Shown piece after piece: positions 9,676 through 45,599 of a DNA stretch of 48,619 nucleotides. Each line of letters starts with the position of its first letter. Position 1 is the first letter of the stretch. The stretch lies in IMG/VR virus record IMGVR_UViG_3300046504_000084, positions 1 to 48,619 of that record; one strand, written 5' to 3'. This stretch comes from a virus. A program made the position numbers and the translations under genes. The notes beneath the pieces are model-generated. The model was not told the DNA's origin and ran no database searches. It worked only from the letters and a program-made list of their open reading frames with translations.

Positions 9676-10305
9676 ATGGAAAAATATATTTGGTCATTAG
9701 ACATTAGTACCACCAATATTGGTAGTACACTAATTGACATGAAAGGAAAACTTATTGAGTTAAAACATCTTGAATTAAAACTTGGTAAAGACATTCCTGT
9801 TGAAAATAGATATATTCATAAATCTGAAATATTTAGAAAATATATTGAAGAATATAAGGAACGAATTTTACATGAACTTAATGGTGAAATTATAGAAATA
9901 ATTATTGAAGAACCTTTGGGCGGAAGTAACAACGCTAATACAGTTTCATTACTATATGGTTTTAATGGAATATGTTCTTATATTTTATATAAAACTTTTA
10001 ATATTTATCCAAAAAAAATTAGTGTTTATGAATCAAGAAAACTATTTTGTCCAGAATTAGTTCATACCTCAAAAAAGAAAAATAGAAAGACTGGCGAAAT
10101 TGAAATTATTCAAACACTTTCATTTCCACCAGAATACATAAAAGAAAAAAAGTTGTATATTTGGAAAAAAGTTTGTAAATTAGAACCCCAAATTGAATGG
10201 TTTTATAAGAAAGACTCAAATGAACCTAAAGATATGTGTTTTGATATGGCTGATTCGTATTGTTGCTGTTATAGTGGCATCATTAAATTTGGTTTGTTAA
10301 AATGA
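9676..10305 (+). CDS. RuvC-like Holliday junction resolvase
   Basis: 209 residues with an RNase H fold. The motif WSLDISTTNIGSTLID puts the first catalytic acid at D9. A central IIEIIIEEP gives E78/E79. The C-terminal helix DMCFDMADSYCCCY offers D186, D190 and D193. This D/E/D...D order is that of RuvC-type resolvases, which cut four-way junctions and branches before DNA packaging. The basic stretch SKKKNRKTG (about 132-140) could contact DNA. It lies between the RHH-like gene and a homing nuclease gene; its last bases overlap the next ATG (ATGA). Assigned by motif order, not close similarity. Confidence 0.65.
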   Translation: MEKYIWSLDISTTNIGSTLIDMKGKLIELKHLELKLGKDIPVENRYIHKSEIFRKYIEEYKERILHELNGEIIEIIIEEPLGGSNNANTVSLLYGFNGICSYILYKTFNIYPKKISVYESRKLFCPELVHTSKKKNRKTGEIEIIQTLSFPPEYIKEKKLYIWKKVCKLEPQIEWFYKKDSNEPKDMCFDMADSYCCCYSGIIKFGLLK

Positions 10306-11192
10306 TTAAAAAATATAATATAGAATTTTTTAAAAAAATTGCTGTTGAAAAAGGTGGTGACTGTTTATCTACCGAATATATTAATTGTAGAAATAAATTA
10401 GAATTTAAATGTAAATATGGACATATTTGGAAATCATTAGCAAGAAGTGTTAAATATTCAAAATCTTGGTGTCCGATTTGTTCAGGTCATATTAAATTAA
10501 CTATTGAAGAAATGCAAGAAATTGCAAGAAATAAAGAAGGAAAATGTTTATCTAAAATATATATTAACGCTAATATTAATTTATTATGGGAATGTAAATT
10601 AGGTCATAAATGGTTAGCAAATGCTAATCGAATAAAAAATTCAAATGATTGGTGTCCCATATGTTCAAAAAATAAAAAATTAACTATTGAAGAAATGCAA
10701 AAAATTGCCATAGAAAGAGAAGGTAAATGCATTTCTAAAAATTATATTAATTGTGATACCAAATTATTATGGGAATGTCAGTACGGTCATCAATGGATGG
10801 CACTTCCTAAATCAATAAAATATGATAATAATTGGTGTCCTGTTTGTAATGAATCTTTAGGTGAAAGAGCAATAAATAACTATCTAAAACAAAATAATAT
10901 TATTTTTGAAAGAGAAAAGAAATTTATTGACTGTAGGGGTAAAAGACGTGTACTTTCATTTGATTTTTATCTTCCTGAAAATAATGCATTAATTGAATAT
11001 GATGGTAAACAACATTTTATGCCCGTTAATTTTTATGGATGTTCAAATGAAAAAGCACAAAAAACACATTTTGATTCAAAAGAAAATGACAATTTAAAAG
11101 ATAAATATTGTAATGATAATAGCATTCAATTAATCAGAATACCCTATACAATAAAAAATGTTGAAGAACACCTGAATAATGCTTTAAGATAA
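10302..11192 (+). CDS. zinc-ribbon array / Vsr-like homing endonuclease (second copy of the type)
   Basis: 296 residues. Three tandem repeats of about 60 residues (roughly 1-60, 64-123 and 126-185) each contain a 'W.C..GH.W......I.....WCP.C' zinc-ribbon pattern with a leading EEMQ-x-IA helix. The C-terminal domain repeats the nuclease core of the 1602 gene: SFDFYLPENNALIEYDGKQHF at about 220-240, then QLIRIPY. It starts at the ATGA overlap with the resolvase gene, which looks like translational coupling, and ends in a TAATG overlap with the next gene. The repeats differ clearly from those at 1602, so this is an old relative and not a recent duplicate. Confidence 0.75.
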   Translation: MIKKYNIEFFKKIAVEKGGDCLSTEYINCRNKLEFKCKYGHIWKSLARSVKYSKSWCPICSGHIKLTIEEMQEIARNKEGKCLSKIYINANINLLWECKLGHKWLANANRIKNSNDWCPICSKNKKLTIEEMQKIAIEREGKCISKNYINCDTKLLWECQYGHQWMALPKSIKYDNNWCPVCNESLGERAINNYLKQNNIIFEREKKFIDCRGKRRVLSFDFYLPENNALIEYDGKQHFMPVNFYGCSNEKAQKTHFDSKENDNLKDKYCNDNSIQLIRIPYTIKNVEEHLNNALR

Positions 11193-16243: not shown

Positions 16244-19200
16244 ATGATTAAAACAATAGCACATATCGCAGATATTCATATCCGTAAAACGCCTACCCGT
16301 AATGAAGAATATCAATTTATATTCGACAATTTATTAAAATCATTAAGACAAACAAAACCTGACAGAATTGTGATTGTTGGTGACTTGGTTCATGATTATC
16401 TTGATCTACAAGGTGAGCAGTTAATCATGGCACACGAAGTACTCAATGCATTGAGTGAAATTGCACCAACACGCATTACGAGAGGTAATCATGATTGCAG
16501 AAAGAAAAGTCTTAAGAGAGTCGATTCAGTAAAGGCAATTGTCAAGACTCTTGATAATCCAAATGTTAAGTATTATGACGAAACAGGATTTGAAGTTGAT
16601 CAAAATGTTATGTGGGCAGTTTGGCATCATGGCGACCCTAAAAATAATCCTTGGAAAACTAAAGTTGGTAAAGAGAATCTGAAAATTAAACAAGAAGAAA
16701 CTGAAAGAGGTACTATAATCGATTTATTTCATGACCCTGTTACTGGTTGCAAATCCACCACAGGTTTTGAAATGAAAAGTAAGCAATATTATAAACTTTC
16801 AGATTTTAAAGGTGACTATTCGTTCTTTGGTGATATACATAAAATGCAATATCTTGACAAAGCGCATACTAAAGCATATTGCGGGTCTCTTATTGCACAA
16901 GATGTAACAGAAGGCGATGATAATTTTCATGGTTATTTACTTTGGGACATTGAAAAGAAAACAGTAGATGAAATTCCAATTGAAAATGAACATTCATTTA
17001 AAAATATTCGAATTACACAGTATACAGATTTTAATGATCTGGATTTTGAAATCCCGAATCCAACAAAATATATGAAGGTCAGATTTGTCTGGGGTACTTT
17101 ACCACAAACAAGAGTTAAAGAAGCTGAAAGAAAACTGGCTGAATATATTAAAAGCAAATATAATAATGTGATTATTTCACAAAAGAACGAATTTCTTGAA
17201 AACGAAAAAATTGATATAAATGAAAACATTACTTTGCAGAACATCACAGATAAGGATGTTCAGCATGAAATATTCAGAGAATATCTAACAAAAATTGGTA
17301 CTGATTCACAATTAATTGAGGATATAATTACACTTGATGAAGAAGTACTCACATTGATCGACACCACAGAAGATCAAAGCATTGAATGGAATGTAGTTAA
17401 ATTTGGTGGCAAAAATTTCATGTCATATGCAGAATTAGAAATTGATTGGAGAAATATGGATGGTTTATTTCAGATTACTGGAGAAAATACTGCTGGAAAA
17501 ACAACTATAATGAAATTAATTTCTTATATACTTTTCGGCAAAACTTTAGAGACTGAAACACGCATGAAATATGGTGATCAACGTTTTGTAAACAACAGAA
17601 ATGGGGCAACATTTTGTGAAGGATATCTCATAATTGAAGCAAATGGTGAATATTTTGGTATTAAAAAGAAAACTGAGATAACTAAAACTAAAGGCGGTGA
17701 AATCAATGGTGCTCCGACTACATTAAACTACTATTTACTTAATAATCCTGATGAAGAAATGAATGACAATACTTCATTAGAAAAACTTGATGAAGATCGT
17801 AGAAAACTTACGCAAAAGAAAATAGAAAGCATCATAGGTACTTATGATAATTTTATGCGTATTGTTATGACTACATCAGATACGTTAAATCGTATATTAT
17901 CAAATGATATGGCAGTATTTATCGATTCGCTTTTATTTGATAGCGGATTGGATATTTTTGATAAAAAATTAACTGGTTATAAGATATATGAAAAGAGAGT
18001 TAATGAAAAACCCAGAGTTTCTTGTGATATCGATGGTGTCTCACTTCAAAATCAAGTATTAGGACATGAAATTGAAACACTTGAAACTGATATAAAAGAA
18101 ATTGAAACAATTAAATTACCAGATGTTCAAGAAAGAATTACTAAAGGTAGGAAGTATGTTGAAGACCTTACTAAGAAATTATTCAAAATTGACCCTGAAA
18201 TTTACACTCTGGACGTAGATAGCACCAAAGAGACTATTGGTACTCATAACACTGAGATAACTAAGCTAAACGCACGAAAAGCGGTTATAGAGCAAAGTAT
18301 CGTTCCATTGAAGGAAACATATGATGCTGAGAAACTAAAAACACTTCTTGAAAAGAAAGAAACACATAAAACTACTGAATATAATAAAAAATTGGAAATT
18401 AAAACCCATGAACAAACAAAAACAATCGAAGATCATGCAATTGAAATTATCAATGGTGATGTTGTTAGATTAAAAGAAAAGGGTGCTAATTTAAAAAAAG
18501 AAATTGTTGCCTTAAAGAATAGTAAAATTTGTAGCCAGTGCGGACAGGTAATTAATAAGAAAGAACATCAAGATCATATTGCCAATACTGTTAAATTAAA
18601 AGAAAATGAAATGTTTCCTCTTGCTGATCAGATTAATGTAAAAGAACATGTTGATAAAGTGGTACATGAACTTAATATTATGGATGAAGATAAAGCAATT
18701 GCAAAAATTAATGAAGAAATTCGTGTTGCTTCTCTTGAAATGGAGAGTGTTTTAAATGAAATTGGTACACTCACCAATGAAAAAAATGATGTTGAAAAAC
18801 GTAAAGAACTTCAGACAGAATTAGATCAGATACCAATAAAGACACAGAATGAAGAACTTAAAATTACATTACTTCAGCAGAAAATCGATAATCATGACAA
18901 TTCTTTAAAACAAATTGTAGAAAATCAGAAGATTGAAAAAGGTATTGCTGCTGCTAAGTTAAAATTGACTGAACTGGAAGGTGAAGAAACTGAAAAAAGA
19001 GAAGACATTTTAATTAAAAAGGGAACTGTCGGAGAAAAACAAATAAAGATTAAAAGTAATGAATTATTAATTGTTGCATTTAAAGCGCAGGAATATCAAG
19101 ACACTGTTATGGGTCTATATAAAAAATGTGTACACAGGGATGGCATACCAAGACAGATGCTGGCAAATTATATATTGCCAAAAATCAATATAACATTACA

Positions 19201-19579
19201 GGAGATATTATCTGTTGCACCATTTAAAGTATGGCTTGATCAGGAAGATTTACGTCCTAAACTGGTTTATAATAATCGACCAACTGCAATTGTTGATTGT
19301 ATCAGTGCATCTGGTAAAGAAAGAACATTCTCCAGTGTGGTAATGAAGTTTGCATTGAATCAAATCAACGTGAAAGCAAAACCAACAATATTCTTGCTTG
19401 ATGAAGTAATGGGTAAATTACTCAATAACAGTGTTGAAGAATTTATTGAAATACTTCAGTTAATAAAAGCAGGAATGAGAAAGGTTTTAGTTATTGAACC
19501 TAAAGAAGAAATTAATCCAGATTATCTAATTAATGTTCAATTGGATGAAGATGGTATATCATCATTTACTATAGAATAA
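16244..19579 (+). CDS. SbcD-SbcC (Mre11-Rad50 / T4 gp47-gp46) fusion
   Basis: 1111 residues combining two normally separate proteins. The N-terminal nuclease (about 1-340) has the phosphoesterase motifs D-IH (D10, H12), GDLVH (about 46), GNHD (81-84), WHHGD and GDIH (about 197). From about residue 380 it continues as an SMC-like ATPase: Walker A GENTAGKTT at 413-421, long coiled coils, a zinc hook CSQC at about 763-766, a signature region SASGKERTF and Walker B IFLLDEVMG at about 1047. In T4, gp47 and gp46 process DNA ends for recombination-dependent replication. The coding frame is continuous across the junction, with no stop or slippery site seen. It has its own promoter. Confidence 0.85.
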   Translation: MIKTIAHIADIHIRKTPTRNEEYQFIFDNLLKSLRQTKPDRIVIVGDLVHDYLDLQGEQLIMAHEVLNALSEIAPTRITRGNHDCRKKSLKRVDSVKAIVKTLDNPNVKYYDETGFEVDQNVMWAVWHHGDPKNNPWKTKVGKENLKIKQEETERGTIIDLFHDPVTGCKSTTGFEMKSKQYYKLSDFKGDYSFFGDIHKMQYLDKAHTKAYCGSLIAQDVTEGDDNFHGYLLWDIEKKTVDEIPIENEHSFKNIRITQYTDFNDLDFEIPNPTKYMKVRFVWGTLPQTRVKEAERKLAEYIKSKYNNVIISQKNEFLENEKIDINENITLQNITDKDVQHEIFREYLTKIGTDSQLIEDIITLDEEVLTLIDTTEDQSIEWNVVKFGGKNFMSYAELEIDWRNMDGLFQITGENTAGKTTIMKLISYILFGKTLETETRMKYGDQRFVNNRNGATFCEGYLIIEANGEYFGIKKKTEITKTKGGEINGAPTTLNYYLLNNPDEEMNDNTSLEKLDEDRRKLTQKKIESIIGTYDNFMRIVMTTSDTLNRILSNDMAVFIDSLLFDSGLDIFDKKLTGYKIYEKRVNEKPRVSCDIDGVSLQNQVLGHEIETLETDIKEIETIKLPDVQERITKGRKYVEDLTKKLFKIDPEIYTLDVDSTKETIGTHNTEITKLNARKAVIEQSIVPLKETYDAEKLKTLLEKKETHKTTEYNKKLEIKTHEQTKTIEDHAIEIINGDVVRLKEKGANLKKEIVALKNSKICSQCGQVINKKEHQDHIANTVKLKENEMFPLADQINVKEHVDKVVHELNIMDEDKAIAKINEEIRVASLEMESVLNEIGTLTNEKNDVEKRKELQTELDQIPIKTQNEELKITLLQQKIDNHDNSLKQIVENQKIEKGIAAAKLKLTELEGEETEKREDILIKKGTVGEKQIKIKSNELLIVAFKAQEYQDTVMGLYKKCVHRDGIPRQMLANYILPKINITLQEILSVAPFKVWLDQEDLRPKLVYNNRPTAIVDCISASGKERTFSSVVMKFALNQINVKAKPTIFLLDEVMGKLLNNSVEEFIEILQLIKAGMRKVLVIEPKEEINPDYLINVQLDEDGISSFTIE

Positions 19580-26951: not shown

Positions 26952-27388
26952 TGAGCAATGAAGGGAAAAGATATCAAATAATTAAAGACAGAGTTGAAAT
27001 ATATAAAGATTTCACATTAAATCTCTTGTACTATATTCAGAAATATTATCTTGATAAAGAATGTCTGAGTAAGGATGAAGATATTTATAATCATTTTTCT
27101 TGGTGTTTCAGAAAAGTTTGTGATGAATTTTTATTGGAAGAAATTGATTTTAGAAAAAATGAAGTTTTAAAACAATATTTTTATAATTATTATTACCATC
27201 AATTTTATAAGATTGATAAAGAGAATATAAATCAAAACACTTCCTTAGAATATTATGAAAGGTTTTGGGAAGGTATATTCAAAATTAGCAACGATAAAAA
27301 CAAAAACATTTTAAATATTCTTGTTGAAATCTATAATATTTACGACAAATCGATTAATTTACAAAAAAATATTCTTGAAATTGTTTAA
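26951..27388 (+). CDS. unknown helical protein downstream of endolysin
   Basis: 145 residues, very rich in Tyr, Lys, Asn and Ile, predicted helical throughout (EIYKDFTLNLLYYIQKYYLD, VLKQYFYNYYYHQFYK). No signal peptide and no clear membrane segment. It overlaps the endolysin stop by one base (TAATG), so it shares the late transcript and is translationally coupled. A lysis-timing or late accessory role is possible but not supported by any motif. Confidence 0.55.
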   Translation: MSNEGKRYQIIKDRVEIYKDFTLNLLYYIQKYYLDKECLSKDEDIYNHFSWCFRKVCDEFLLEEIDFRKNEVLKQYFYNYYYHQFYKIDKENINQNTSLEYYERFWEGIFKISNDKNKNILNILVEIYNIYDKSINLQKNILEIV

Positions 27389-27425
27389 AAACTCTTGCTT
27401 ATCGTATTTATATTCACTATTTTTA
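27384..27425 (+). promoter_or_regulatory. host-type promoter TTG-N20-TATTTTTA with extended -33 block
   Basis: TTTAAAAACTCTTGC (27384-27398) contains the TTG at 27395; TATTTTTA at 27418-27425 follows a 20-nt spacer. The whole region from the -33 to beyond the -7 closely matches the promoter at 43870. A GTATTTATA late motif lies inside the spacer at about 27404, so both polymerase forms might use it. Confidence 0.65.
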
Positions 27426-27460
27426 CAATTCAAAAATAATTATTATTAAATAAAAAAAAC

Positions 27461-34746: not shown

Positions 34747-35268
34747 TTAAGGTAATTTAATATTATATGTCTTTGATAAATACAATAATGCTTCGGCATT
34801 TCCAGTGCAATCTGCTAAAGGATTGTGCGAGTGAACTGTTATTCTATGTTTTTTCCATCGATAATACATATCACCAGTTGCTCCACAAAACAGGTCCCCA
34901 ATTCTTCTTGATGACCAAGAAAAAGGATTTGAACCATAATATTTATGAAAATAATAATTAAGACATACACCAAAATCATAACCATTATTATCTGAAATTC
35001 CAACTGGTGACCCTTTAGAATTGATTTTTAGCCAATCAGAAAATTCTTTCATCACCTTTTCTGGTTCATCAAATTTAAGATGTTCTTCACGACTAAAACC
35101 ACTAATTGCTAATGCTTCTGGATTCCATTTATCTGAAATTGGTCTCATTTTACCGTAAAAGGTTTTAGATAATGAGGGTTCGACAACAATTGCTGCAAAA
35201 CAAACAATTGAATAATCTGGCATAAATGGTCCATCCGTTTCTACATCACAACATACAAGTTTACTCAT
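34747..35268 (-). CDS. DEDDh 3'-5' exonuclease (DnaQ-like)
   Basis: 173 residues. Catalytic motifs are visible: CCDVETDGPFM (D8, E10), SDNNGYDFG (about 92-100) and VHSHNPLADCTGNAE with the general-base His and final Asp. This is the DEDDh layout of DnaQ/RNase T-like enzymes, which remove nucleotides from 3' ends. As a stand-alone domain it may process DNA or RNA rather than proofread. It overlaps the upstream membrane gene by an ATGA. Confidence 0.75.
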   Translation of the reverse strand: MSKLVCCDVETDGPFMPDYSIVCFAAIVVEPSLSKTFYGKMRPISDKWNPEALAISGFSREEHLKFDEPEKVMKEFSDWLKINSKGSPVGISDNNGYDFGVCLNYYFHKYYGSNPFSWSSRRIGDLFCGATGDMYYRWKKHRITVHSHNPLADCTGNAEALLYLSKTYNIKLP

Positions 35269-37601: not shown

Positions 37602-38096
37602 TTACATTAAAATTTTTAATATTTTTTCTTTTACGTTACTTTGTTTAATTCCTTCAGTTGAGCGTGTGCATCGTACAAAATGATCACTTAACCAAGGTCT
37701 GAGATCAAGATCATCCACTGCAACATATTTTTCAATTTGATATTGATGAACATATTTAAGAATTTCAAATCCACGACATGTATCAAGTTCTTGAAGACTT
37801 TTGAATTGTGTTCCCCAAAAATCTGGAGTTACATTAGTAATTATTGAATTAACACCATTATCTTTAAAGATTTCATTTAATATGTCAAGAGTAAATCTGA
37901 GTTTCCAGTCGCTGGAGAGTATTATAAGTGGTTTTGCAGTTTCAAGAATTTCATTCAGTACCTTAACACATTTAGAATCAAAAGGTGATGTCATATATTT
38001 TGGATGCAATTTTTTTGCGAAATGTTGTCTTGAACATACGAGTACATCGTCAATATCCAGAAAGATAACTGGTTGTTGATTTATATTATTTTTCAT
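37602..38096 (-). CDS. HAD-like phosphatase domain protein
   Basis: 164 residues. HAD motif I is FLDIDDVLV (D14, D16), motif II is LIILSSDWK (Ser about 58) and motif IV is YVAVDDLDLRPW. This small HAD type is related to those found in nucleic-acid end-repair and in phage 'Swiss Army Knife' repair proteins, so a phosphatase acting on nucleic-acid ends or nucleotides is plausible. It overlaps the upstream LAGLIDADG gene by 11 nt. A second HAD gene is at 45006. Confidence 0.68.
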   Translation of the reverse strand: MKNNINQQPVIFLDIDDVLVCSRQHFAKKLHPKYMTSPFDSKCVKVLNEILETAKPLIILSSDWKLRFTLDILNEIFKDNGVNSIITNVTPDFWGTQFKSLQELDTCRGFEILKYVHQYQIEKYVAVDDLDLRPWLSDHFVRCTRSTEGIKQSNVKEKILKILM

Positions 38097-39054
38097 ATTT
38101 CCAAATATTGTTTTTATAAATATCTTCGTGTTCTAAATGCCATCGTAATGTTGTATAAGGACATAATAATTCATTACTTACTTCACGAATTGTATCCCAA
38201 AATTTAATAAAATTCATATTAATATCATATTGTGATACTTTTCTAAAACGACACACTCGTTTCATATAATCAAGATTATTTAAATATATGTCATATTTTC
38301 TTTTTAAATAATATTTAAAAGTGTTATCTGAATATATGAAACTTAAAAATTTATATGTATCGGCATAAAGATACATTCTCCAAACATTTGATTTATTTTT
38401 AGTAACTCTATCAAAATATTTTGGCTTTATACCATAATTAATTAAAATATAATCTTTAATAAAATTTAATATCTCTTGTGTGCCAATTAAATTCATTATA
38501 AGTGCTTTTCCTTTTAAACTAACTGACCCATCACCATCAAACAATCCTGCAATAAAATATGAATAATATTTTTCTTCAATATTTGGAAAATTAAGTATAT
38601 CCGATTTATTTGATGTTACACCTAAATTAATAAGATTAGCAACAAAAAGTTCGTTTCCGATTTGAATACTATATCCAGTATATGTTTTATTGGTTCGTTT
38701 ATCGTAAGTAATAGATTTGGTTATTGTATGTTCAGCACCAATTGCTTCTTTAAATCCTTCAATTACTTCCAAGTCTTTTGATACCAAACTAACCTTATTA
38801 TTATTTTTTGTAATATTACCATCTGCACATATATATCCAAGCCAATATGCTTTATCGGGAGAGTTAATTTCTTTAAAATAATCGATATTAAGTGTAAGAT
38901 GACTCATGTTTAATCTACTTTTTTTACGTTTTATTCCGTTATCTTTTAACGTTTGTCTTATTTCATATATATTTTTTTTAAAAATAAACGCAATTTCTTT
39001 TTGTGATTTTGTCTTAGATAATTCAATAATTTCTTTTTCAAGTGTTTTGTTCAT
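38086..39054 (-). CDS. LAGLIDADG homing endonuclease
   Basis: 322 residues with an N-terminal HTH (about 18-44, QKEIAFIFKKNIYEIRQTLK). Two LAGLIDADG motifs follow: YWLGYICADGNI (about 70-81) and YFIAGLFDGDGSV (about 166-178), each with the conserved acidic residue. A C-terminal HTH-like block (ISQYDIN-like region near 265-300) may add DNA contacts. It is a free-standing mobile endonuclease. A TGTAAC-N17-CGTATAA promoter lies 24 nt upstream of the ATG. Confidence 0.85.
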   Translation of the reverse strand: MNKTLEKEIIELSKTKSQKEIAFIFKKNIYEIRQTLKDNGIKRKKSRLNMSHLTLNIDYFKEINSPDKAYWLGYICADGNITKNNNKVSLVSKDLEVIEGFKEAIGAEHTITKSITYDKRTNKTYTGYSIQIGNELFVANLINLGVTSNKSDILNFPNIEEKYYSYFIAGLFDGDGSVSLKGKALIMNLIGTQEILNFIKDYILINYGIKPKYFDRVTKNKSNVWRMYLYADTYKFLSFIYSDNTFKYYLKRKYDIYLNNLDYMKRVCRFRKVSQYDINMNFIKFWDTIREVSNELLCPYTTLRWHLEHEDIYKNNIWKYEK

Positions 39055-40505: not shown

Positions 40506-40637
40506 TTTTTTTAAATATTTATTAAAATTTATAAATCTGCGAATTATGTAACATTTAATTTGAATCATGTAATATTTTTGCAAAAAATTTTCTATTTATA
40601 GTATATGTTGTATTCATACACTATCCCAATTTCTTAG

Positions 40638-40693: not shown

Positions 40694-41947
40694 ATGAAAA
40701 CAAAAAAACTATTAACAATCTTTGCATCGTTATTTATTGCATTGCTTGTTTTAATCACATGTAAAAAAGACGATTTTAAAGAACTCGTTGGTTTATGCCC
40801 TCAACCAAAAATAGAATTTACGGTAGCATTATCATCAAATCCTGTTGATGGTGGAACAACCATAGGCAATGGAACATTTCCAAAAGACACTTTAGTAACG
40901 GTAGCTGCAACTCCAAATGCAGGATTTACTTTTACTAACTGGACAGATGGAGCAACAGTTGCTTCAACAAGTTCAACTTATACATTTACATTAGATACAA
41001 ACAAAATATTTGTAGCTAATTTTACCCCTGTAGTAGTTGGTACTTTCACTTTAAATGCTACTGGTGTTAACGGAACAGTTTTAAAATTCCCAGATCAGTT
41101 ATCATACAATTTAAATGATGTAGTTCAAATTACAGCAGTCCCAGATGCAGGATATCAATTTGATTCTTGGAGTGGAGACGCTACTGGAACTATAAATCCT
41201 CAAAATGTTACAATGGATGCAAACAAAAATGTTACAGCTAATTTCTCATTAATTATAGCATCACTTTGTCCTACAATTGTAGATTTAGGTTTATCTGGTA
41301 ATTTTGCAATATTTGCAGAATCAGGTATTTCAACTACAGGTGTTACCTTAATTACTGGTGACATTGGAGTAAATCCTGTAACTGCAACTTCAATAACTGG
41401 ATTTGGATTAATTCTTCCAGCAGGTGGCGCATTTTCAACATCAAGTTTAGTTGTTGGTAAAGTATATGCTCCCGATTATGCTGCTCCATCACCAGCAAAC
41501 ATGGTTACAACCAGTGGTGACATGCATACCGCATATACTACAGCAAATGGTTTAGTAGTACCAGCACCTACAAATGAATTTATGTCAGGTAATCTTAATG
41601 GTCAAACATTAACTGCAGGTATCTACAAATGGAGTTCAGGTGTTTCAATAACAAACGGTATCGTATTAGACGGTGGTGGTGACGATTGTGCAACATTTAT
41701 ATTCCAAATAGCACAAGACTTAACAGTAGCAAATAGTGCAGTTATTACATTACAAAATGGTGCACAAGCTAAAAATATCTTCTGGGTAGTAGCTGGTAGT
41801 GGCGCAGTATTAGGAACAAATGTTGATTTCAGTGGAAACATTTTATGTAAAACATTGATTTCAGTTAATACTGGCGGTAAAGTTACTGGTAGATTATTGG
41901 CACAGACAGCAGTTACATTAAATGCTGTAACAGTTGTAAAACCATAA
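40694..41947 (+). CDS. lipoprotein with two InlB-type repeats and a DUF3494 ice-binding-like domain
   Basis: 417 residues. A signal peptide ends in a lipobox LITC with C23, followed by KKDDF; this is a Bacteroidetes-type outer-membrane lipoprotein. Residues about 40-115 and 117-192 are two divergent InlB B-repeat-like modules (VAATPNAGFTFTNWTDGA ... ANF; ITAVPDAGYQFDSWSGDA ... ANF). Residues about 199-416 match the DUF3494 ice-binding protein fold: LSGNFAIFAESGIST, GDIGVNPVTATSITGF, AGIYKWSSGVSI, FIFQIAQDL, AQAKNIFWVVAG, GRLLAQTAVTL. In bacteria such domains bind ice or act as adhesins. It was probably acquired from a host and would be displayed on the infected cell. Confidence 0.82.
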   Translation: MKTKKLLTIFASLFIALLVLITCKKDDFKELVGLCPQPKIEFTVALSSNPVDGGTTIGNGTFPKDTLVTVAATPNAGFTFTNWTDGATVASTSSTYTFTLDTNKIFVANFTPVVVGTFTLNATGVNGTVLKFPDQLSYNLNDVVQITAVPDAGYQFDSWSGDATGTINPQNVTMDANKNVTANFSLIIASLCPTIVDLGLSGNFAIFAESGISTTGVTLITGDIGVNPVTATSITGFGLILPAGGAFSTSSLVVGKVYAPDYAAPSPANMVTTSGDMHTAYTTANGLVVPAPTNEFMSGNLNGQTLTAGIYKWSSGVSITNGIVLDGGGDDCATFIFQIAQDLTVANSAVITLQNGAQAKNIFWVVAGSGAVLGTNVDFSGNILCKTLISVNTGGKVTGRLLAQTAVTLNAVTVVKP

Positions 41948-41990
41948 TTATAAATTATTGAAAATGATAAAAATTATAAAAATAAAAAAC

Positions 41991-43298
41991 ATGAAAACAA
42001 AAAATTCATTCATGATCATTGTCAAAACACTTATATTAAGCGTTTTGATTCTGATTAGTGCTCAAATGAGCATTTTGGCACAAAGCCAAAGTAAAATAAA
42101 CAGTGATGACTCAAAAGTAGGTGTTAAATCGCCTAAAAATGCACAGGTGTACGCTGATACCGTACAACTTAAACCTACATGGTGGTTTGGTGTTGCAGGT
42201 GGCGCAAATCTAAACTTCTATCGTGGAAGTACACAAGATGTAAATGCAGATTTATTCTCATACCCTGCTTTTCATAATGGTAGTGGTGTGGGATTATACC
42301 TTGCACCTACTGTAATATACCAAAAACCCAATAAGGTATTTGGTGCTATGTTACAAATAGGATATGATAGTCGTAAAGGTAAATTCGATCAAGTAACTAC
42401 TCCATGTAATTGCCCTGCAGATTTAAAAACAAATCTCAGCTATGTTACAATTGAACCAAGTTTACGTGTAGCACCATTCAAAGGTAATTTCTATCTTTAT
42501 GGCGGACCTCGTCTTGCATTCAATGTAGGAAAATCGTTTACATATAATAAAGGTGTAAGTGTTGATGGTACTATACCAGCAGAACAATTAAAAGGTGACT
42601 TCACAAAAATGCATCAATCAGTACTTTCTTTAAATGTTGGCGCAGGATATGATGTATTACTTTCATCAAAAATCAAAAACAACAAATCAAAGCAAGTAGT
42701 ATTATCACCATTTGTTAATTTCCATCCTTATTTTGGTCAGAATCCACGTTCAATTGAAACATGGAATGTAACTACATTAAGAGTAGGTGCAGTATTAAAA
42801 TTTGGTCATGTTAATATACCTGTAAAAAAGGTAGTACCAGTAGTTGTAGTTGTTCCAGTAGTTAAAAAGGATTCAACACCTGTCGTGGTAAAACCAGCAC
42901 CAGTAGTGGTAGTGGTAGTTGCCAAACCAATCGCAATTGTTCGTACTTATTCATTATATTTTAAATTCGATAAATCTAATCTCGATGATAATACAATAAA
43001 AAATCTCGATGCATTAATTATTGATTTGAAAAAAGATTTGACAATTGGTGTTCAAATCAAGTCCTATGCTGACATGAGAGGAAGTAAAGCATATAATATA
43101 AGTCTTTCTGAAAGACGTGGTAATGCAGTTGTTAATTATCTTATTAGCAGAGGTATTGATGCTTCACGTATTAATTCTCAAGGACTTGGCGAAACAGTAG
43201 AATTTAACAAAAATAATGATGGTAAAATTAATGAGAGCAATTATGCATTAAATCGTAGGTCTAATCTTGTTGTTGTTGACATTGTAATTAAAAAATAA
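41991..43298 (+). CDS. OmpA-like outer-membrane protein
   Basis: 435 residues from ATG 41991, chosen for a good signal peptide (cleaved near residue 30, SILAQSQ); upstream TTG/ATG starts only lengthen it. Residues about 45-275 look like an outer-membrane beta-barrel (FGVAGGANLNFYRG, FYLYGGPRLAFNVGKSF). A Val/Pro/Lys-rich linker (about 280-315) leads to an OmpA C-terminal domain (about 318-435) with YFKFDKSNLDDNT, SYADMRGSKAYNISLSERRG and INSQGLGE, which binds peptidoglycan. With the lipoprotein before it, it forms a surface cassette. Host origin is likely. Confidence 0.82.
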   Translation: MKTKNSFMIIVKTLILSVLILISAQMSILAQSQSKINSDDSKVGVKSPKNAQVYADTVQLKPTWWFGVAGGANLNFYRGSTQDVNADLFSYPAFHNGSGVGLYLAPTVIYQKPNKVFGAMLQIGYDSRKGKFDQVTTPCNCPADLKTNLSYVTIEPSLRVAPFKGNFYLYGGPRLAFNVGKSFTYNKGVSVDGTIPAEQLKGDFTKMHQSVLSLNVGAGYDVLLSSKIKNNKSKQVVLSPFVNFHPYFGQNPRSIETWNVTTLRVGAVLKFGHVNIPVKKVVPVVVVVPVVKKDSTPVVVKPAPVVVVVVAKPIAIVRTYSLYFKFDKSNLDDNTIKNLDALIIDLKKDLTIGVQIKSYADMRGSKAYNISLSERRGNAVVNYLISRGIDASRINSQGLGETVEFNKNNDGKINESNYALNRRSNLVVVDIVIKK

Positions 43299-43300
43299 AT

Positions 43301-43558
43301 ATGAAAAAATTAATTGTTTTATTTATCTTTGCAATAGCAATGATATTTGCAGCAACATCATGCACTCCTTTATTTAGTGTATCTGGCACATATGACCCAA
43401 ATGATTCGTATTATATCGAAACATCACCTTATTATCATCACCAACATTATTATGTTGATTACTATTATGATAGACATTCATCTTATTATCAGAGACAACA
43501 TGTTAATCGTAATGAACCACAAAGAGGTAGAAACAAATCTAATAATCGTAGAAAATAA
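43301..43558 (+). CDS. small His/Tyr-rich lipoprotein
   Basis: 85 residues. Signal peptide with a lipobox AATS-C21. The mature protein is low-complexity, with many His and Tyr (SPYYHHQHYYVDYYYDRHSS), and a basic Arg/Asn-rich end. It starts 2 nt after the OmpA-like gene. A His-rich exported lipoprotein could bind metal; function unknown. Confidence 0.62.
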   Translation: MKKLIVLFIFAIAMIFAATSCTPLFSVSGTYDPNDSYYIETSPYYHHQHYYVDYYYDRHSSYYQRQHVNRNEPQRGRNKSNNRRK

Positions 43559-43583
43559 TATTATATTTTAAAATTTTATTACC

Positions 43584-43769
43584 ATGCCAATTCTTACTGT
43601 TTTACTCGTATTAATCTGTATTGGACTTCTCTTATGGGCGGTCAACAAATATGTTCCAATGGCTGCCAGCATTAAAAATATTTTTAATGTTGTTGCAATA
43701 GTTTTAACAATTATTTGGCTTCTCAAAGTATTTGGAGTTTTTGCCTATCTTCAAAACGTACACATTTAA
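43584..43769 (+). CDS. small two-segment membrane protein (Thivi_2564-like)
   Basis: 61 residues with two membrane helices (about 4-22, LTVLLVLICIGLLLWAVNKY, and 34-53, IFNVVAIVLTIIWLLKVFGV) joined by a short loop containing PM. The pattern matches the small Thivi_2564-type membrane proteins found in many bacteria and phages. Function unknown; last gene before the terminator at 43792. Confidence 0.62.
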   Translation: MPILTVLLVLICIGLLLWAVNKYVPMAASIKNIFNVVAIVLTIIWLLKVFGVFAYLQNVHI

Positions 43770-43791
43770 AACATTTTTTTGTTTTCAATGG

Positions 43792-43836
43792 ATGAGTGAG
43801 TGGACGTAGAAATATGTCACCTCACTCATTTTTTTT
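43792..43836 (+). terminator. terminator, copy 1 of a duplicated element
   Basis: ATGAGTGAG (43792-43800) pairs with CTCACTCAT (43821-43829), followed by eight T. The loop GTAGAAATATGTCAC is kept in the second copy at 44297. Confidence 0.82.
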
Positions 43837-43869
43837 AATTTATAATTTTTTTTAATATCAATTAAATTA

Positions 43870-43911
43870 TTTAAAAACTCTTGCATATTATATTTATAAT
43901 AACTATTTTTA
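43870..43911 (+). promoter_or_regulatory. host-type promoter TTG-N20-TATTTTTA with extended -33 block
   Basis: TTTAAAAACTCTTGC (43870-43884) with TTG at 43881, 20-nt spacer, TATTTTTA at 43904-43911. It closely matches 27384-27425 over more than 50 nt. The ATG at 43942 follows. Confidence 0.68.
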
Positions 43912-43941
43912 CAACTTAAATAATTTTATTAACTTAAAAAA

Positions 43942-44253
43942 ATGAAAATGAAAAAAATTGTATTATGTATTTTGGCAATATTATTGTCATTAATATTTAT
44001 CCCAATTCAAGCAAGTGCTAACTCTCCGAAACCAGCTACTACTTTAACTGCTGAAAAAACTGCTGAAATTAAAGCTATTGAATTGAGAATATCTGAAATA
44101 AAATCGATGGATAAAACAAACTTGAAAGCATCTGAAAAGAAAAGTTTGAGAAAAGAAGCTAAAGAAATGAGTAAAAAAGTTCGAAGAGACTATACTTATG
44201 AATATGGTGGACTATTACTTCTTTTATTACTTTGCATAATCATATTAATGTAA
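43942..44253 (+). CDS. small exported membrane-anchored protein, unknown
   Basis: 103 residues; start ATG 43942 or 43948. An N-terminal signal-like segment (IVLCILAILLSLIFIPIQAS) is followed by a helical stretch (about 32-75, EKTAEIKAIELRISEIKSM ... EKKSLRKEAKEMSK) and a C-terminal membrane helix (YGGLLLLLLLCIIILM). Such small proteins are common in Bacteroidetes. It is transcribed alone between the strong promoter at 43870 and a terminator, which argues for high expression. Function unknown. Confidence 0.58.
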   Translation: MKMKKIVLCILAILLSLIFIPIQASANSPKPATTLTAEKTAEIKAIELRISEIKSMDKTNLKASEKKSLRKEAKEMSKKVRRDYTYEYGGLLLLLLLCIIILM

Positions 44254-44296
44254 TTGATATAATTAATAAAATTATTAATTATTCTTCTTATAATGG

Positions 44297-44344
44297 ATGA
44301 GTGAGTGTTTGATGTAGAAATATGTCACCTCACTCATTTTTTTT
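44297..44344 (+). terminator. terminator, copy 2 of a duplicated element
   Basis: ATGAGTGAG (44297-44305) pairs with CTCACTCAT (44329-44337), followed by a run of T. Loop and flank almost match the copy at 43792. Confidence 0.82.
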
Positions 44345-44418: not shown

Positions 44419-45009
44419 ATGAAAATTACAGATAAACTCTTAAAAAATATATCGAAAATTATGAAAGTAACTGGTTTTATTATCTCGGCACAGGGCGACC
44501 CGTCTGTTGGCATCAATCCTGCAACATGGAAACTCGAAGAAGATTTTTATTTTGATGATCAAGAAGAACTCGAAGAATTCAAAAATCAATTAAAAGAATT
44601 ATTTACAAATTATTGTGGCGAAATATCATTCATTGAAACATATGAAGAGTATCAAAAACAAATTGATGCCGAAGACCTTGAATATTTTGCAGAATTTCCT
44701 GTCAGATATCTTATACGTGATAAAGATCATAGTTACGACCTATTTAAACAAGCCGATTTTAGTGCTTCATATTCTAATGAAGTAGGCACTGCAATTCACA
44801 CTGAACTTCCTAAATGGATACCAGAAGAAGGTAATAGTGATACTCAGGTTATTAAATCTACCGACCCAATGTATAAAGAAATTTTGCTCAAAGCTGCAGA
44901 ACGTCTTGAAAATGAAATCAAGAATAATGAATATCAACTTAAAAATGCAAAAATAAATTTACATATTATTAACAAAGAACTTAATATCGGACTTAAAGCT
45001 AAAGAATGA
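44419..45009 (+). CDS. unknown protein heading a repair-like operon
   Basis: 196 residues, acidic (FYFDDQEELEEFKNQLKELF; DAEDLEYFAEFPVRYLIRDK), with a C-terminal coiled coil (AAERLENEIKNNEYQLKNAK). No signal peptide or membrane segment and no family recognised. It overlaps the HAD gene by an ATGA, so its product is probably made in step with that protein. The mRNA would be nearly leaderless. Confidence 0.6.
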   Translation: MKITDKLLKNISKIMKVTGFIISAQGDPSVGINPATWKLEEDFYFDDQEELEEFKNQLKELFTNYCGEISFIETYEEYQKQIDAEDLEYFAEFPVRYLIRDKDHSYDLFKQADFSASYSNEVGTAIHTELPKWIPEEGNSDTQVIKSTDPMYKEILLKAAERLENEIKNNEYQLKNAKINLHIINKELNIGLKAKE

Positions 45010-45599
45010 TAGAACCAGTATTAAATAAATATGCTAATATTCTATTTCTCGATCACGATGGCGTTTTAAACTGTCAGCTTTTTTATAATGAAAAATTCGC
45101 ACATCTTGAACGTTTTGATGGTATACCATTATATAAGGTAGTAAAAAAATATTTACATAAACTTGTTAAAAAGAAAGAAATAAATGATTTGGACTATTAT
45201 AAAAGCGAAACAAGTCTAATGCGAATTGAATTATTAAATTGGCTTTGTAAAGAAACCAATAGTGCTGTAGTTATCACTGCTTCATTAAGAAGTAGCTGGT
45301 CTGTTGAAGACTTGCAGAAGATATTTAATTATTGCGGAGCAACATTTACTATCATTGACAAAACAGGTCATTCAGCAGACAGGATAAGAGGAGTTGAGAT
45401 ATATAACTGGTTAAAAGATAATTGTTATAACTGGTTTGGAGTGCATTATTTTGATTTTCATCGTTATGCAATCATTGATGATGATAGCGACATGTTGTTA
45501 AAACAACAATACAATTTTTTTCAATGCGACAAGTATTGTGGTTTAACACCTACAATTGTTGAAAATATAAAAAATTTTTTTACACATAAAACTTTTTAA
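45006..45599 (+). CDS. HAD-like phosphatase domain protein (second copy of the type)
   Basis: 197 residues. HAD motif I is ILFLDHDGVLNC (D16, D18), motif II is AVVITASLRSSW and motif IV is YAIIDDDSDML. It is more diverged than, but of the same small-HAD class as, the protein at 37602. HAD enzymes of this class act on nucleic-acid ends or small phosphates. Its neighbours, an ATP-grasp protein and a DNA ligase, fit an end-repair setting. Confidence 0.68.
   Translation: MIEPVLNKYANILFLDHDGVLNCQLFYNEKFAHLERFDGIPLYKVVKKYLHKLVKKKEINDLDYYKSETSLMRIELLNWLCKETNSAVVITASLRSSWSVEDLQKIFNYCGATFTIIDKTGHSADRIRGVEIYNWLKDNCYNWFGVHYFDFHRYAIIDDDSDMLLKQQYNFFQCDKYCGLTPTIVENIKNFFTHKTF

Follow-up and report, generated by a model that had tools for sequence, protein, structure and literature searches.

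Why would a phage carry, amid genes for DNA metabolism, a block of exported genes headed by an ice-binding-like (DUF3494) lipoprotein and an OmpA-type protein? The window analysed here, meaning the whole stretch of DNA under study, is a 48.6-kb virus record whose gene order is collinear with the 218-kb phage contig L005 over most of its length. Two of its proteins, the 1111-aa nuclease encoded at 16244-19579 (38%) and a conserved 173-aa protein encoded at 34747-35268 (59%), find their best annotated phage match in the same genome, the 735-kb Mahaphage LR756501. A single window gene has its counterpart within the 30-kb portion of LR756501 that was compared. The largest phages of the huge-phage study form the Mahaphage clade, for which Bacteroidetes hosts were predicted (PMC7162821). 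Thus, the collinearity with L005, the relationship to LR756501 and these predicted hosts place the cassette in the genome of a very large phage, whose host is probably a member of the Bacteroidota.

The neighbours of the cassette encode a DNA ligase, a nuclease and HD, HAD and ATP-grasp proteins. The DUF3494 lipoprotein, the OmpA protein and a 103-aa protein of the cassette have no relative in any annotated phage record. An initial reading of the letters alone, hereafter the sequence-only reading, had seen no integrase flanking the block, and a profile search for the tyrosine integrase family PF00589 likewise revealed none in the window or in two related records. Several other features of the window were recorded. 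The 1111-aa nuclease combines a phosphoesterase part resembling SbcD with an ATPase part resembling SbcC, and two paralogous HAD-type proteins (37602-38096 on the minus strand and 45006-45599 on the plus strand, both phrog_1818) flank the cassette. Homing-endonuclease-like genes occur at 1596-2708, 10302-11192 and 38086-39054; the last has a LAGLIDADG-type appearance, judged from the motif by eye, and is absent at the corresponding site of L005.

Organisation of the cassette

The features of the cassette, all on the plus strand, are as follows.

40541..40607, +, probable promoter/operator of the cassette (from conservation; function inferred)
40694..41947, +, DUF3494 (ice-binding-like) predicted surface lipoprotein, 417 aa (ORF, profile search, structure model)
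40694..40774, +, signal peptide, lipobox LIT-C23 and KKDD, matching the export signal C-X-K-(D/E)2-X (motif definition from PMC5080379)
40814..41251, +, two InlB-type beta repeats (stalk), residues about 41-112 and 120-186 (PF18998, AlphaFold strands)
41267..41944, +, DUF3494 beta-solenoid, residues 192-417 (profile search, structure comparison)
41991..43298, +, chimeric outer-membrane protein of barrel, linker and OmpA domain (profile search, AlphaFold)
about 42180-42815, +, barrel homologous to the chromosomal partner (partner comparison)
42816-42941, +, Pro/Val-rich linker (partner comparison)
42942-43283, +, single canonical OmpA peptidoglycan-binding domain (PF00691)
43301..43558, +, small His/Tyr-rich lipoprotein, lipobox ATSC (ORF; weak phrog_542 match)
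43584..43769, +, Thivi_2564 family small membrane protein (NF041949, E 2.1e-17)
43790..43831, +, terminator hairpin ending the cassette (-21.9 kcal/mol, z -5.8, followed by a T run)
43864..43941, +, AT-rich, promoter-like element of ~80 bp upstream of the 103-aa gene (~84% repeat at 27378-27459)
43942..44253, +, 103-aa protein with signal peptide and C-terminal membrane helix (ORF; DUF7765 below the Pfam cut-off)
44295..44339, +, second copy of the terminator hairpin, 3' of the 103-aa gene (repeat search)

The sequence-only reading had described a block of exported genes, which holds, at 40694-43298, which is too short: the functional block extends over 40694-43769, or to 44253 if the 103-aa gene is included. 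The small lipoprotein and two small membrane proteins that it had listed were recovered as well. The lipoprotein has a 67% identical homologue in L002, located there between the DUF3494 lipoprotein and OmpA genes; the Thivi_2564 protein, identified by its NF041949 match, has homologues in L002, L003 and L005; and the 103-aa gene accompanies the cassette, with a 78% homologue in L002 that is divergently placed.

The DUF3494 lipoprotein

The 417-aa protein matches PF11999 (Ice_binding) with an E value of 9.9e-68 and 228 bits against a cut-off of 28.7, the alignment covering residues 206-414 of the protein and positions 1-207 of the 208 in the profile. The DUF3494 identity, which was to be abandoned should a profile search fail, is thus secure, and the proposed InlB-type repeats were likewise found, in two stretches, by PF18998 (E 7.5e-27). 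The N-terminus displays a hydrophobic leader and LITC, with the cysteine at residue 23, followed by KKDD. The Thr at position -1 of the lipobox is unusual, most chromosomal copies presenting Gly, Ala or Ser. The resulting CKKDDF fits the motif C-X-K-(D/E)2-X, the counterpart in L003 being CKKDNF. This motif was experimentally sufficient for surface display in Capnocytophaga, and the surface signals of Bacteroides and Flavobacterium act similarly (PMC5080379). The earlier designation as a surface lipoprotein is therefore consistent with a lipobox followed by a Bacteroidota surface-export signal, and it is this signal that argues for placing the lipoprotein on the cell surface, to which it is predicted to be exported, and not in the virion.

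The AlphaFold model of the lipoprotein (mean pLDDT 85.5) displays a discontinuous beta-solenoid. The closest structure in the PDB is the ice-binding protein of Candidatus Cryosericum odellii (9li0/9lhn; 56% identity, rmsd of 1.6 Å, TMt of 0.94), which is also matched in sequence with an E value of 2e-67. The putative ice-binding B-face was located by motif analogy to AnpIBP (PMC7277481) and comprises the strips SGISTT (210-215), TSIT (232-235), SGVSIT (315-320), NSAVIT (347-352), SGAVLG (369-374), TLISVN (387-392) and TAVTLN (405-410). The strips contain no charged residue and are the same or nearly the same in five phage proteins, so that the predicted face appears flat, uncharged and rich in Ser, Thr, Ala and Gly, as expected by analogy for ice binding.

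Among the phage copies, dN/dS is 0.07-0.14 for the solenoid, compared with 0.23-0.46 for the N-terminal part and stalk; the DUF3494 domain is under strong purifying selection. This distribution bears on the possibility of superinfection exclusion, in which the phage lipoprotein and the OmpA-like protein would cover or replace outer-membrane receptors and so block the adsorption of other phages. Phages frequently target lipoproteins and OmpA-type porins, and the partner protein has retained its barrel while its periplasmic half was swapped, both of which agree with such masking. Surface proteins of huge phages may also change the susceptibility of the cell to other phages (PMC7162821). However, masking predicts selection on the exposed barrel loops instead of the solenoid, while the strongest selection falls on the solenoid and not on the barrel or stalk. 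Because the most conserved parts are the DUF3494 domain and, within it, the predicted ice-binding face, binding is favoured over masking, and receptor masking is considered improbable.

Binding of the solenoid to a non-ice ordered surface, a polysaccharide or a neighbouring cell, which would alter the aggregation or attachment of infected cells, is the strongest of the rival explanations, since DUF3494 proteins also occur in ice-free environments and are described as ice- and substrate-binding (PMC12337378). The InlB stalk and OmpA anchor resemble those of an adhesin, and the adhesin-associated OmpA-type protein TpgA is among the NCBIfam matches of the partner, below the cut-off. Against this stand the nearest solved structures, which are named ice-binding proteins, the conserved and uncharged predicted ice face, and the Arctic seep from which one of the sources was sampled. 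Adhesion to a surface other than ice is thus judged unlikely, although less so than masking.

The outer-membrane partner protein

The second gene starts at ATG 41991 and not at TTG 41958, as indicated by the N-termini of its homologues. The proposed OmpA-like barrel with a peptidoglycan-binding end was recovered by matches to PF13568 (barrel, E 6.7e-8) and PF00691 (OmpA, E 2.6e-16). AlphaFold predicts, with low to moderate confidence, eight long strands, a disordered linker and an OmpA fold. Residues D372 and R387 (446-aa numbering), located 15 positions apart, are invariant in six phage OmpA proteins; by comparison with Acinetobacter OmpA, we take them to be the residues that bind diaminopimelate in peptidoglycan.

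A chromosomal operon in Bacteroidota and the origin of the cassette

Among cellular DUF3494 proteins, those nearest to the phage protein are lipoproteins of Bacteroidota. Of the 15 best cellular matches, 14 are directly followed by a homologue of the barrel/OmpA partner; the fifteenth, from Chlorobiota, is followed by a plain barrel-OmpA gene. When the sampling was widened within the class, DUF3494 was present in 47 of 295 genomes, and the partner gene was found at 6 of 30 DUF3494 loci, all encoding long repeat-bearing lipoproteins; none was associated with short secreted proteins. The chromosomal unit, observed in L011-L024, L028 and L137-L140, consists of two genes, encoding a long InlB-repeat DUF3494 lipoprotein and then a barrel/OmpA protein of 640-694 aa. 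This Bacteroidota operon is apparently new to the literature; no description of a link between DUF3494 and OmpA, or between DUF3494 and phages, was found in the open-access literature searched.

The chromosomal operon, found in Mucilaginibacter, Prolixibacteraceae and others, shares with the phage cassette the gene order, a CKKD(D)-type leader, a VCP motif, the InlB stalk and the C-terminal DUF3494 domain, and the partner proteins are about 33-44% identical overall. Major differences concern length and composition. The phage lipoproteins comprise 417-492 aa, compared with about 557-1185 aa in complete chromosomal copies, and lack the Big_5 Ig domain and several of the repeats. The phage partners (401-454 aa) keep the barrel, while a single canonical OmpA domain, attached by a Pro/Val linker, takes the place of the C-terminal half of ~400 residues. 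The small extra genes are, in addition, a property of the phage cassette, unlike the chromosomal operon. The phage pair does not contain the full-length partner that characterises the chromosomal pair, and is treated here as a putative derived variant of the operon.

In phylogenetic trees, the cassette solenoids form one clade (100/99) within a 100/100 clade of operon-type Bacteroidota domains, with G171 as the nearest genome. The barrels of the phage partners also fall into a single clade (100/99), which clusters, again at 100/99, with those of some of these organisms. Since each phage protein constitutes a single clade within or beside the Bacteroidota copies, the two genes were very probably captured as a pair. 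Codon use, proposed earlier as a check for host-like genes, is phage-like, with GC3 values of 0.14 and 0.18 for the cassette genes compared with 0.18 ± 0.04 for the phage, which suggests that the capture is old; the raised GC at 41-43 kb is explained by amino-acid composition. The suggestion that an envelope cassette was gained from the host thus stands insofar as both proteins nest with or adjoin those of the Bacteroidota operon and the DUF3494 protein carries a lipobox and export signal, but not as a recent gain. Recent acquisition from a host was rejected on the basis of the phage-like codon use, the rebuilt partner and the spread over collinear and unrelated phages. The cassette is an old, maintained phage trait.

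Distribution of the cassette among phages

The lipoprotein and OmpA genes are adjacent in L003, L004, L005, L006, L007 and L008. Most copies occupy the same site, bordered to the left by an HD-domain gene and to the right by genes for HAD and ATP-grasp proteins, and in L003, L004, L005 and L006 the flanking phage genes are the same as in the window. These contigs bear on whether the block is bacterial DNA that entered a viral contig through misassembly or is carried there by chance, as the existence of a homologous operon in Bacteroidota chromosomes could suggest. The identical site in four contigs and the phage-like codons argue against such an artefact, as does the shortened chimeric architecture, which is absent from the sampled genomes. 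A misassembly is refuted by the collinear contigs, and the explanation retains practically no probability.

L002 is a different phage with few homologues of window genes, yet its DUF3494 protein is 83% identical; its cassette contains the DUF3494, His/Tyr lipoprotein, OmpA, Thivi_2564 and 103-aa genes in a changed order. The dS values of the cassette (mostly 0.5-1.3) overlap those of flanking genes (0.8-3.1) but are mostly lower, a pattern that exchange of the block between phages would produce. L008 was recovered from a sample of an iron seep in Arctic tundra near Toolik (PMC13386937), an origin that fits a role in ice binding without proving it.

A second DUF3494 lipoprotein (IVEC-KKDNN), belonging to a different clade, is inserted within the cassette of L005 (L005:12966-13700). 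The recruitment of this second, unrelated copy points to binding by the solenoid as the selected function, which is a further argument against superinfection exclusion.

Proposed function

Taken together, we assign a probability of about 0.55 to the reading that the cassette is a phage-owned, slimmed and partly rebuilt Bacteroidota surface operon, whose surface-displayed solenoid grips ice or an ice-like surface. Surface export, ice as the ligand, the physical pairing of the lipoprotein with the OmpA protein and the benefit to the phage are what we infer beyond the genes themselves; candidate benefits are ice adhesion, freeze protection, superinfection exclusion and a strengthened wall. The proposed mechanism would operate while a very large phage infects its host in cold water or soil. 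A single transcript would span the cassette from 40694 to the terminator at 43790. After lipidation at Cys23, the lipoprotein would be delivered by its CKKDD signal to the outward-facing side of the outer membrane, where the two InlB repeats would keep the beta-solenoid at a distance from the cell. The barrel-OmpA protein would reside in the same membrane with its OmpA domain on the cell wall, and may anchor or organise the lipoprotein. Through its flat, uncharged face of Ser, Thr, Gly and Ala, the solenoid could then bind ice or an ice-like ordered surface, such that the infected cell would stay attached, ice growth at the cell surface would be limited, or both.

Given its presence in an unrelated virus as well and the strong selection acting on it, the cassette probably provides infected cells with an ice- or surface-gripping coat. 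More tentatively, huge Bacteroidota phages may put such an ice-gripping coat on infected cells by means of a captured, re-engineered operon traded between lineages, which would anchor the cell or protect it from freezing over a slow infection cycle, with other phages independently employing the fold on their virions; this wider proposal is considered somewhat less probable than its negation. Single ice-binding-like genes of polar viruses have so far been listed as auxiliary, without a mechanism. The cassette represents a complete, testable system, with a lipoprotein apparently targeted to the surface, its own predicted outer-membrane partner and a clear Bacteroidota origin, and the chromosomal DUF3494/OmpA operon may explain how many Bacteroidota ice-binding-like proteins are anchored.

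Comparison with other viral DUF3494 proteins and known systems

Nearly all other viral DUF3494 proteins are devoid of a signal peptide. In L103:60-3932 and L105:7191-11015 the domain lies inside tail sheath proteins (phrog_10581, E below 1e-200), apparently displaying an ice-binding-type fold along the contractile tail. DUF3494 proteins without a signal peptide are also encoded at L079:6687-8666 (with relatives in L080, L082, L084 and L085), L009:9401-10660 and L010:9620-10747; the genes of L079 and L009 are located beside major head protein genes and that of L010 near a terminase, and the products are probable capsid decorations or fibres. Two separate phage uses of one fold, at the cell surface and in the virion, are thereby indicated.

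These proteins lend some plausibility to the alternative that the lipoprotein of the window decorates the particle and aids its binding to ice or surfaces. In contrast with them, however, the cassette proteins have a signal peptide, lipobox and surface signal, the lipoprotein is paired with an outer-membrane protein, and its neighbours belong to DNA metabolism and not to a head or tail module. A virion role was rejected on the basis of the signal peptide, lipobox and gene context, and is regarded as highly improbable.

The solenoid attributed here to the cell surface resembles the type 1 DUF3494 ice-binding proteins FfIBP, Candidatus Cryosericum IBP and SfIBP in its beta-solenoid and uncharged Ser/Thr/Gly/Ala face. 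Unlike them, it is predicted to be tethered to the membrane through a stalk and to have an outer-membrane protein as its partner; its ice binding is likewise a prediction. According to the accessible part of a study of Arctic vOTUs (PMC11515562), PF11999 ice-binding-like genes occur there as single auxiliary genes, for which host cryoprotection was proposed, and an antifreeze protein had earlier been found in Southern Ocean viral metagenomes. Those genes and the cassette are alike in being phage-borne DUF3494; in contrast with the single genes of that account, the cassette is multi-gene, of host-operon origin, remodelled and common to phage lineages. The ice adhesin of Marinomonas primoryensis (PMC5014055) follows the same principle of adhesion by an ice-binding domain held off the cell by repeats, although it has another fold, measures 1.5 MDa, belongs to the bacterium itself and is not homologous to the phage protein.

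Repeats and regulatory elements

Upstream of the cassette, GAATTATGTAACATTT is located at 40541, with a two-mismatch copy at 40562, and CTATTTATAGTATATG at 40592. The region 40541-40607 is kept in four collinear phages and not in L002. The motifs upstream of the cassette, including GAATTATGTAACATTT and CTATTTATRNTATATG, show no enrichment in the rest of the window, and the cassette was thus assigned to no early or late promoter class. The absence of repeats noted in the sequence-only reading is not quite accurate, since the terminator hairpin is present at both 43790-43831 and 44295-44339, its core recurring exactly at 44320 where no repeat is expected by chance, and the element of ~80 bp recurs at 27378-27459. 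The two copies of this element (27378-27459 and 43864-43942) each precede a phage gene, one of them the 103-aa gene, and possibly represent a common promoter class.
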